From Alphaproteobacteria bacterium (lineage in GTDB: Bacteria; Pseudomonadota; Alphaproteobacteria; Micropepsales; Micropepsaceae): a stretch of 38,967 nucleotides of DNA. The stretch lies in contig PMKE01000120.1 in assembly GCA_003158585.1 (NCBI GenBank), positions 1-38,967 of the forward strand, read 5' to 3'. The notes beneath the pieces are model-generated. The model searched no databases. It had not been told where the DNA came from and was given only the letters and a program-made list of their open reading frames with translations. The position numbers and the translations under genes are program-made. Of this stretch, positions 28,305-31,779 are shown in pieces. Within the stretch, counting starts at the first letter, position 1. Each line of letters starts with the position of its first letter.

Positions 28305-28790
28305 ATGGATCCGAAAGAAATCATCGAGGTGTTCCGCCGCAATGTCATGGAACATTACTTCGACATGTCCGGCCGAGTCAGCCGCAAGGAGTTCTGGTAT
28401 TTCGTGCTGGCGAGCTTCGTCCTCTACCTGGGCGCGGCGATCATCGGTTCCATCCTGTTCTCCGGCCTTCTCACGAGCCTCTTGGGACTGGCGCTGCTGC
28501 TTCCCATGATGGGTATCGGCGCAAGGCGGCTGCAGGACATCGGCCGCAACGGACAGCTCATGTGGGTCTGGGCAGGCGTCACGCTGGTGATGAACGTGAT
28601 CGGCCTGCTGGCGGCCATGACCGGACCGTTCGGTGCGGTGGGCTTCCTGTTCTTCTTCCTGTCGATCGGCTGGCTGATCAGTCTGGCGATGCTCGTGATC
28701 TCGGTCGTGCTGATCTACTTCTGGATTCAGCCCGGAACGGCCGGACCGAACGAGTTCGGACCCGACCCGTTACCCTCGGCTGCCAAGTAG
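28305..28790 (+). CDS. DUF805 family inner-membrane protein
   Basis: A 161-residue membrane protein. The DUF805 pattern is clear: FDMSGRVSRKEFWYFVLASF at about residues 18-37, then GIGARRLQDIGRNGQLMWVW near 75-94, with three to four hydrophobic helices around these. DUF805 proteins are widespread and have no settled function. The C-terminus (QPGTAGPNEFGPDPLP) is the usual family ending. The ATG follows a G-rich site. Its stop is 12 bases from the stop of the convergent TetR/Sel1 gene. Confidence 0.9.
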   Translation: MDPKEIIEVFRRNVMEHYFDMSGRVSRKEFWYFVLASFVLYLGAAIIGSILFSGLLTSLLGLALLLPMMGIGARRLQDIGRNGQLMWVWAGVTLVMNVIGLLAAMTGPFGAVGFLFFFLSIGWLISLAMLVISVVLIYFWIQPGTAGPNEFGPDPLPSAAK

Positions 28791-28802: not shown

Positions 28803-30404
28803 TTAGTTTGGGGTCTGCGCGGCGGGCGGCACGTCGTTCGCCGCGCGGTCGATTTTGCTTGGCTTAAAGGCCGCAATAGCCGTCTGGGCGGCTTGAAGCT
28901 CGTCCGGCGTCAGCTGTGCAGCGAGCATTTCGGCGCGCGTCTCGGCGTTCTGGTCGCCCCGTGCCGCCGCGATGGCGTACCATTCGTAAGCTTCGGGGAT
29001 ACTGCGCGACACGCCTTGGCCGCGCTCGTAGAGGATCGCCAGATCGAACTCTGCATCGACGTCGCCCAGGGCGGCCGCGCGGCCGAACCACTGCGCCGCC
29101 TTTTCGTAATCCGTCCCCTCTGCCCAGCCTCCGGCATAGAGCTTGCCGAGATTGGTCATGGCCTTGATGTTGCCGTGCTGCGCAGAGGCTTCGTACCAGC
29201 GGATGGCCTTCGCCATGTCGGCGGGGACGCCGGTTCCTGTCTGATAGAGAACGCCGGTGAAATTCATCGCCACGGGCTGGCCCGCCGCGGCGGCGCGTTC
29301 GAGCCACTTCGCGGCCTTTTCGACGTTCGTCGCCACGCCCGTCCCGTTCAGCAGCCGTATGCCGAGTATCAATTGAGCCTTGGCGTCGCTGCGCGCCGGA
29401 ACGGTGTACGGCTTGGCCGGTACGGGAGCGACCGCTCTTTCCTGTGTCGCCGCGCGCGGGGGGAAAGCGGCGAGCACGAAAGTATCGAACGCCGCCACGG
29501 CCAGCGCCGCGAGTCCGAGGATCAGCCAGACTCGCCGCTTGTTGCCGAAACGCAGTTTGGGAAGCAGCGGCGGCCGCCGGGGCGGTTGCTGCACGACGAT
29601 CTGCGAGGCGACGATCGCGGCCCGCCGTGCCGTGCTGAGATAGTTGTCCGCGGCCGACGTCTCTGTGGCCGGTTCGCGTTCCGCTTGCGGCTCCGGCTCC
29701 TGAGGAATTTCCAGCACGATCGCAGGTTCGTCCGCCGGGCTTGGAGGAACCGTATGCGTCTCGTCCTTTCCCGTGTGCATCAGATTGTGCAGGTCGAGCC
29801 GAAGTTCCGCGACCGCCGTTTGCTGGCGCTGCTCGAAGGCTTTCAGCCGCGCCTGCAACTGCTGCAACGTCTCCGTCACCGCCGAAGTCTGGCCGGCAAG
29901 CTCTTTCGCCTGCTCGTCCATGCGCCGCTCCAGCTTGGTTGCGGACTGTTCCGCAACGCTGAGGCGCGCTTCCACGCGCGACAGGACGCTGTCGGTCCCT
30001 TCTTTCATCAACGACTTCGGGACGATGACGCGACTGGCGATCTTATGGAGCGCGTCGGCCTGGGCCTTCATCAACTCCTGGTATTCTTCGCCGGACGGTT
30101 CGCCGGCTGGCGCCGTTGCTTCGGCTTCGAGCGCCGGAGACGACTCCGCGATTGCAGTTTCGGCGGTTGGCGCCGCTTCCGTCGTATCGTCCGCAGGCGG
30201 TGAATCCGTCGCGGCTTCCGGTTCGCCGTTTTCTTCGGAGGACGCCGGCCCAACCTGAGAAAACAGGTCCTTCCTGCTCGAGAAGTAGCCGTAAACCGTG
30301 GCACGCGCGATGTTCGCTTCGCTCGCCACCGCGCTTAAAGTCAGCGCTTCCGGTCCGTTCCGCTCGATAAGACGGTTTGCCGCTTCGAGGATCACGGCGC
30401 GCAT
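28803..30404 (-). CDS. TetR-type HTH / coiled-coil / membrane / Sel1-repeat fusion protein
   Basis: A 533-residue protein of unusual architecture, in order: a TetR-type helix-turn-helix (1-47: ILEAANRLIERNG, then LTLSAVASEANIARATVYGY with FSSRKDLF, a complete TetR signature); an acidic Ala/Pro/Glu-rich stretch (55-105); a coiled coil (about 105-210, rich in Leu, Gln and Glu); a Pro-rich segment; DNYLSTARRAAIVAS (253-267), a motif I associate with PodJ-like Sel1 proteins; one membrane helix (292-314) after the basic FGNKRR; then four Sel1 repeats (340-484) in the periplasm. It lacks the TetR ligand-binding domain. One reading is a membrane-tethered regulator like CadC/ToxR in layout. ATG 30404 is used; a TTG at 30470 with GGAG upstream would add 22 residues (including ARPRERV) and is a real alternative. 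It is divergent from the pentapeptide-repeat gene. Confidence 0.85.
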   Translation of the reverse strand: MRAVILEAANRLIERNGPEALTLSAVASEANIARATVYGYFSSRKDLFSQVGPASSEENGEPEAATDSPPADDTTEAAPTAETAIAESSPALEAEATAPAGEPSGEEYQELMKAQADALHKIASRVIVPKSLMKEGTDSVLSRVEARLSVAEQSATKLERRMDEQAKELAGQTSAVTETLQQLQARLKAFEQRQQTAVAELRLDLHNLMHTGKDETHTVPPSPADEPAIVLEIPQEPEPQAEREPATETSAADNYLSTARRAAIVASQIVVQQPPRRPPLLPKLRFGNKRRVWLILGLAALAVAAFDTFVLAAFPPRAATQERAVAPVPAKPYTVPARSDAKAQLILGIRLLNGTGVATNVEKAAKWLERAAAAGQPVAMNFTGVLYQTGTGVPADMAKAIRWYEASAQHGNIKAMTNLGKLYAGGWAEGTDYEKAAQWFGRAAALGDVDAEFDLAILYERGQGVSRSIPEAYEWYAIAAARGDQNAETRAEMLAAQLTPDELQAAQTAIAAFKPSKIDRAANDVPPAAQTPN

Positions 30405-30509
30405 AGACACGCGCTCACGCGGGCGTGCCCACCCCGCGTCAAGTGCCGTTCCTGCTCTTCTGCCGGACAATGACGGCTCCGACCCTGTTCGCCGCCTACT
30501 GTGCTGCTT

Positions 30510-30524
30510 TTTTGGTGAACAAAA
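30510..30524. promoter_or_regulatory. Inverted repeat, candidate operator
   Basis: TTTTG-GTGAA-CAAAA is a perfect 5-bp inverted repeat in the divergent region, 40 bases upstream of the TTG start alternative and 106 from the ATG of the TetR-type fusion gene. It sits in an AT-rich patch (30505-30540) that probably contains that gene's promoter. TetR-type proteins often bind their own promoters. Confidence 0.35.
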
Positions 30525-30637
30525 CGTTGGAAAATATCGGAGCGGCAGGGACGCGGTAAACGAAAGATGAAGCCTCCGCCCGGATGTCGCCGAGGGCGCG
30601 CGGCTGCCGGATTGGGACTGCGCAACCCCGGGTTAAC

Positions 30638-30672: not shown

Positions 30673-31779
30673 GTGCGTGTGGGGGCTTCCGTCATAGTCA
30701 AGAGCGACGCGTCTGCGGTTACGTCGCACGGTACAGCAGCGATGCCGCGAGAGGAAATCGAGCGGATTATCCGCGCGCACGAGCTTTATCTTTCACATTC
30801 TGGCAAGGGCTCCCGCGCTGTCCTCACCTCTCGTCACCTCGCGGGCGTGGACTTCTCTAACCGGGCGCTTGCGGAAGCCGAATTCATAGGATCGGACCTT
30901 TGCGGGGCCAATCTGAGGTTCGCCAATCTCATCGGCGCAAACCTTTATTGCTGCGAGATGCGCAACGTGGACGCGCGCTACGCCAATTTCACCCATGCGG
31001 ATATGCGCGGCGTCACGCTGAACGGCAGCAATCTGTCGCATGCGCGCCTCGATCACGTCGATTTCCGCGCCGGCCGTCTGATGAAGAGCGTTGCCGGAGG
31101 CAAAGAAGCCGTCATCGACCGCAACGGATCGGCGAATGGCGTCGACCTCAGCTATTGCTCCCTCTCCTGCGCGACCTTCGAGGGCGCCGATCTCAACGGC
31201 GCGGATTTCACCGGCGCCATCATCACCGCCACCAAATTCAAGGGTGCGCGCCTGGCGGGCGCCACCTTCAAGGGCGCTATCCTGAGCGACATGGACATCA
31301 GCGAAATCCCGTTGCCGCCTTCCGCCTTCGCGGAATGCGTGCTGCCGCCTAGCGCCGAGGCCATCGCCGCCAAACCGCACCTGATGTTCCGGCTCAACGC
31401 CCACCAGCGCTGGGTCGAGTCCGACGCGCGCATGGGTTCCTGCGCGGTATTCGACGGCGAAGACCTGCGACCGCTGGCGACGGCGATCGGCAAGTTCAAG
31501 CTCACCGCAATCTCGGCGAGGAAAGTCATCGCGGCCGGTGTGGATTTCTCGTGCACCGAATTGCAAGGCGCCAATTTCGAGGGTGCCGATCTCAGGGGCG
31601 CCAGCTTCGAAGGAGCAGACTTGCGCGGCGTAAAGTTCGCCGGCGCCCGTCTGCACCACGCCAAGTTCATCGGCGCGGACATGCGTCCCCTCGCGCTCAA
31701 GACAGGCGGCACGCTGCCGTGCGACCTTACGGGCGTCGAACTGAGCGCCGAACAGCGAGCGGAAGCGATCTTCGCCTGA
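30673..31779 (+). CDS. Pentapeptide-repeat protein
   Basis: A 368-residue protein built around A(D/N)LXX repeats. Repeat block 1 is about 56-135 (GANLRFANLIGANL and similar), block 2 about 155-210 (FEGADLNGADFTGA) and block 3 about 288-355 (LQGANFEGADLRGASFEGAD). The blocks would form right-handed beta-helices. Between blocks 2 and 3 lies a non-repeat part (235-285) with LNAHQRWVESDARMG. The N-terminus holds a short helix EEIERIIRAHELYL. The start is a GTG at 30673 next to a G-run; GTG 30679 and ATG 30742 are alternatives. No signal peptide is seen. Function is unknown; in this family some members mimic DNA, but the divergent TetR-type fusion gene is the only contextual clue. Confidence 0.85.
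   Translation: MRVGASVIVKSDASAVTSHGTAAMPREEIERIIRAHELYLSHSGKGSRAVLTSRHLAGVDFSNRALAEAEFIGSDLCGANLRFANLIGANLYCCEMRNVDARYANFTHADMRGVTLNGSNLSHARLDHVDFRAGRLMKSVAGGKEAVIDRNGSANGVDLSYCSLSCATFEGADLNGADFTGAIITATKFKGARLAGATFKGAILSDMDISEIPLPPSAFAECVLPPSAEAIAAKPHLMFRLNAHQRWVESDARMGSCAVFDGEDLRPLATAIGKFKLTAISARKVIAAGVDFSCTELQGANFEGADLRGASFEGADLRGVKFAGARLHHAKFIGADMRPLALKTGGTLPCDLTGVELSAEQRAEAIFA

Follow-up and report, generated by a model that had tools for sequence, protein, structure and literature searches.

A TetR-type helix-turn-helix heads a predicted membrane-anchored, PodJ-like Sel1 protein in Rhizomicrobium-like Alphaproteobacteria

The 38,967-nucleotide stretch of DNA analysed here (the window; contig PMKE01000120.1 of the Micropepsaceae assembly GCA_003158585.1) encodes on its reverse strand a protein with a TetR-type helix-turn-helix (HTH) near its N-terminus and, behind it, a linker, a long helix, a membrane helix and Sel1 repeats. 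We read this TetR-headed protein as a lineage-specific PodJ paralogue in which a TetR-type HTH took over the N-terminus in a single event, giving an envelope-anchored DNA-binding scaffold, an interpretation that we hold at a little under an even chance. The source bacterium is related to the soil genus Rhizomicrobium. In broader terms, since about two thirds of the genus genomes examined retain the design and no other genome searched showed it, the protein's probable role is to hold or read DNA at the envelope of the cell.

The preliminary description placed the start of the gene at ATG 30404. Pfam finds TetR_N and four Sel1 repeats in the open frame, as claimed, but the start has to be revised. 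ATG 30404 has no ribosome-binding site, and a TTG at 30468–30470 has a GGAG box 6 bases ahead of it. Sequence comparison shows that orthologues keep the box, the TTG and the initial residues. Translation therefore very probably begins at the TTG, which adds 22 residues, including an RPRER arm.

28803..30470, reverse strand: whole gene, 555 amino acids, stop codon included (TTG start; Shine-Dalgarno box and TTG conserved in orthologues)
30477..30480, reverse strand: Shine-Dalgarno GGAG (same box in L009, L050 and L053)

An imperfect dyad, TTGTC-N9-GACAA, overlaps the TTG start in L012 and L094 and partly in L009 and L011. It could be an operator or merely a coding constraint.

The protein itself is composed of the following parts.

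30402..30470, reverse strand: N-terminal arm, residues 1–23, with the arginine-rich RPRER ahead of the HTH
30255..30401, reverse strand: TetR-type HTH, residues 24–72 (Pfam TetR_N, AF2, PDB sequence matches)
30078..30245, reverse strand: disordered acidic linker, residues 76–131, length not conserved (AF2, family comparison)
29772..30092, reverse strand: helices 127–147 and 152–233, probable oligomerisation region (AF2, periodicity)
29589..29654, reverse strand: juxtamembrane helix 273–294 (YLSTARRAA), common to the PodJ-like paralogue (AF2)
29466..29540, reverse strand: single membrane helix, residues 311–335, predicted N-in/C-out (hydropathy, AF2, flank charge)
28920..29384, reverse strand: Sel1-repeat solenoid, residues 363–517, predicted periplasmic (Pfam, AF2, Foldseek)

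The TetR-type HTH proposed earlier is well defined. Pfam assigns TetR_N with an E-value of 1.2e-13 (51 bits, where the cut-off is 24), and the sequence matches of the N-terminus in the PDB are TetR regulators. In an AlphaFold (AF2) model built with 24 family sequences, the HTH helices lie at residues 17–38, 45–52, 56–62 and 66–73, with a pLDDT of about 95. By sequence and predicted fold this is the N-terminal HTH of TetR regulators. However, the TetR ligand-binding and dimerisation domain is absent, as had been noted; in its place, Pfam and AF2 give a disordered linker, a long helix, a membrane helix and Sel1 repeats. Since the TetR core is missing, this protein, membrane-anchored by prediction, is not a regular TetR protein.

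Residues 76–120 of the linker have a pLDDT below 50. The helix at 152–233 is continuous (about 82 residues) and amphipathic, with a hydrophobic period of 3.6 residues (p 0.003); the heptad period of 3.5 is weak (p 0.14). Of the coiled coil described earlier, the long amphipathic helix stands, but a clean heptad was not found, so the name is an interpretation of this helix. Hydropathy and AF2 agree on a single membrane helix: the protein has one markedly hydrophobic segment, which starts at residue 316 and scores KD 2.3 across 19 residues. The four Sel1 repeats (Pfam E 8.5e-33) form a solenoid with a pLDDT of about 97, and the Foldseek matches of the model are Sel1 proteins; membrane helix and repeats were both correctly anticipated. 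In 36 of 39 family members, positive charge is higher on the N-terminal than on the C-terminal side of the membrane helix (mean net flank charge +3.2 versus +0.3). On this basis the HTH is predicted inside and Sel1 outside, and the fold agrees with this topology, which had also been suggested from the letters.

In combining a DNA-binding domain predicted in the cytoplasm with a single membrane helix and a C-terminal domain predicted in the periplasm, the chain recalls CadC, ToxR and TcpP, whose HTH is winged, whereas it is TetR-type here. The protein may thus be a one-component transmembrane regulator of the CadC/ToxR type, in which Sel1 would sense the periplasm or a partner, changing HTH pairing and the repression or activation of target genes; we regard this, the chief alternative, as possible but less likely than the scaffold. 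ExoR is a precedent for a periplasmic Sel1 regulator, and the Sel1 repeats, predicted periplasmic here, give a weak NCBIfam match to it. ExoR itself lacks both a membrane domain and a DNA-binding one. Transmembrane transcription regulators are described in PMC10269533 as widespread, with more than a hundred DNA-binding domains in use among them; TetR goes unmentioned in its main text, though other membrane TetR proteins may exist. The predicted architecture is that of these regulators (PMC10269533), and the descent is PodJ-like.

The PodJ-like nature of the C-terminal part, claimed at first from resemblance, is borne out by a tree of the Sel1 region (83 rows; a quick tree in which many branches are weak), where it groups with the PodJ-like proteins of the genus as its closest relatives. 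All proteins of the genus, TetR-headed and PodJ-like, form one clade against the PodJ-like rows of other families (SH-aLRT 100). Within it, the TetR-headed rows fall together and the genus PodJ-like rows outside, except for the short open frames L023 and L103. The TetR label changes 5 times on the tree compared with 27.6 times in shuffles, which is compatible with a single gain and later losses. The sequences fit one gain of the HTH head in the genus followed by at least two losses, in L054 and in L041/L042.

Alphaproteobacteria use PodJ as a core polarity scaffold; localisation at a pole and recruitment of clients (PleC) characterise such scaffolds. In Caulobacter crescentus PodJ combines cytoplasmic long helices and disorder with one membrane helix and periplasmic Sel1/TPR repeats, as the TetR-headed protein is predicted to do, and the topology of PodJ (PMC8980812) agrees with the one predicted here. 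The TetR-headed protein differs in being shorter and in lacking a peptidoglycan-binding domain behind the Sel1 repeats. The same genome holds a PodJ-like paralogue without the HTH (L195:2546-4948, on G000:C26; about 801 amino acids), which starts with MQPDLPWNVAGIPAEAREAARAAARREGLSVGEWLTR. The N-terminal motif PWNVAGI..EAREAARAAARREGLS.GEW.TR hardly varies among the paralogues L195–L214. This N-terminus is missing from the TetR-headed protein, where the HTH occupies the place that the motif and the first coiled coils have in the genus paralogue. The comparison fits an HTH that took the place of the N-terminus of a genus PodJ-like relative. The motif region of the paralogue looks like a small folded domain; it has no convincing match in Pfam or, by sequence, in the PDB, and these searches gave no support for a ribbon-helix-helix.

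Matches run from head to tail in 42 of the 69 genomes of the genus (Rhizomicrobium-like), and the head was located separately in four further ones (G008, G012, G425 and G448). Orthologues with the same domain order, for which a search had been proposed, were thus found in frame in at least 46 of the 69, including Rhizomicrobium electricum DSM 21034 (Micropepsales); the relatives also include many alphaproteobacterial MAGs. Across the class, 198 of 385 genomes match. Among the matches listed, the head occurs in genus members only, and elsewhere the helix-membrane-Sel1 part alone is found. The genome assembly is a draft in 143 contigs, and in G421 (L216, G421:C4) the HTH lies in another frame than the helix and Sel1 part, by frameshift or assembly error. 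For the window, two genes joined by such an error are nevertheless wildly improbable, and sequencing error is excluded because the order recurs in so many genomes.

The HTH is absent from L041/L042 and L054, and it was not found in L215. In L054 (the same gene as L014) the TTG frame stops shortly past the start, and hence the head is gone. Orthologues lacking the HTH had been named as evidence against the design. They do exist, but they are few and appear as secondary losses inside the TetR-headed clade. The open-access literature searched held nothing relevant on TetR–Sel1 fusions or membrane TetR proteins and no described system with this design, in agreement with the preliminary description.

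The HTH itself appears constrained. Identity among close pairs is 67% in the HTH, 30% in the linker next to it and 69% in the membrane helix, and dN/dS in the HTH has a median of 0.33. Judged from these sequences, the HTH is under purifying selection comparable to that on the membrane helix. Pfam still matches TetR_N at E 0.01 in 22 of 24 members. T/S44 and F63 are kept in 39/39 family members each, K/R66 in 37/39, R/K24 in 34/39, R56 in 29/39 and Y60 in 21/39, with arginine at position 60 in 12/39. Positions like 56, 60 and 66 presumably face DNA, as in TetR–DNA complexes, and this pattern of conservation supports DNA binding. Tyr60 is replaced by arginine in many members of one branch with almost no linker (L030, L037, L043–L048, L107, L109 and L113), so specificity or binding may have changed there. 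The altered Tyr60 and the few orthologues that lost the HTH could also point to an HTH that does not bind DNA and acts as a protein–protein or dimerisation module on a PodJ-like scaffold. We consider this unlikely, as the purifying selection, the basic residues kept at 24, 56 and 66 and the persistent TetR_N matches speak against it.

Some members of the Arg60 branch adjoin an AsmA-like gene. Phylogenetic footprinting found no operator common to the family; the best dyads differ among sub-clades and barely exceed column-shuffled controls, and they were rejected as an operator.

Two elements were located upstream of the gene.

30514..30530, reverse strand: upstream element CCAACGTTTTGTTCACC (AA-N7-TTCA[CT]), conserved in the window's branch
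30557..30571, reverse strand: weak CtrA-like box TTCA-N7-TTTA, 2 mismatches to TTAA-N7-TTAA

The full CtrA motif of Caulobacter is TTAA-N7-TTAA, and podJ has a variant of it (PMC4287350), so that a CtrA-type motif upstream is a further likeness. With at most one mismatch, the motif occurs 14 times in 39 family upstream regions, compared with 0.6 for flanking DNA and 1.3 for shuffles, counts that are drawn from related sequences and so are not independent. The number of boxes peaks at the 7-base spacing. PodJ-like genes, likewise related to one another, have 19 such boxes at this spacing in 20 upstream regions and 0–2 at other spacings. As the window's own boxes carry 2 mismatches each, the CtrA claim rests on the family. 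AA-N7-TTCA[CT] is present in 14 of the 39 related regions, each of them from the window's branch, where shuffles would give 0.2; the other branch has [GC]TAA-N7-TTAA boxes instead. In most of L195–L214 a CtrA-like box is nearly fixed about 133–153 bases before the start, and several of these PodJ-like genes have a second element, AACC/AACATTC-TTTAC, near −70.

Across the relatives compared, the gene has no widely conserved neighbour, and neither an operon nor a conserved divergent target was found; argC and a gene for an OmpA-type lipoprotein lie close to it repeatedly, though only in the closest relatives. In the window, a divergent gene for a long pentapeptide-repeat protein (30673–31779, forward strand) adjoins, as it does in L052 and L054 only, and a convergent gene for a DUF805 membrane protein (28305–28790, forward strand) also adjoins in L050 and L052.

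The distance from HTH to membrane ranges from 140 to 419 residues in the family and the linker between HTH and helix from about 0 to 190, which makes a rigid signal from Sel1 to the HTH unlikely. Tethering, or control by local concentration and pairing, fits better. This wide variation, the lack of a conserved neighbouring target gene or shared operator, and the scaffold-type ancestor all count against the CadC/ToxR-type regulator; CadC, ToxR and TcpP lack its PodJ descent and long variable linker. For these reasons we lean to a tether or scaffold, and PodJ descent, CtrA-like boxes and the missing conserved neighbour together favour a DNA-binding scaffold anchored at the envelope or pole.

Such a scaffold would be transcribed in a CtrA-controlled phase of the cell cycle, if the upstream boxes are a guide. 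It would enter the membrane with its HTH on the inner and Sel1 on the outer side, as charge and fold suggest. Its descent suggests that the Sel1 solenoid and PodJ-type helices would position it, the probable place being a pole or division site. The long helix may pair two chains, so that two HTHs could bind a palindromic site. Sites bound in this way would be kept at the envelope, and transcription nearby might be affected. The most specific version, a sequence-specific chromosome-to-envelope tether in Rhizomicrobium that joins a PodJ-type scaffold to a TetR head, is expressed under CtrA and keeps chosen chromosomal sites at a pole, is a rather doubtful possibility.

SlmA and RefZ are TetR proteins that position division and use a TetR-type HTH in a spatial role. 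For RefZ this role is also described in PMC6657595. Both are soluble, complete TetR proteins, unlike the TetR-headed protein, which lacks the TetR core and is predicted to be membrane-anchored. The stable exchange of a PodJ N-terminus for a DNA-binding domain lets one ask, in a natural setting, whether DNA can be captured directly by polar scaffolds or whether such a protein can become a regulator at the membrane; R. electricum DSM 21034 is a cultured type strain that carries the gene.
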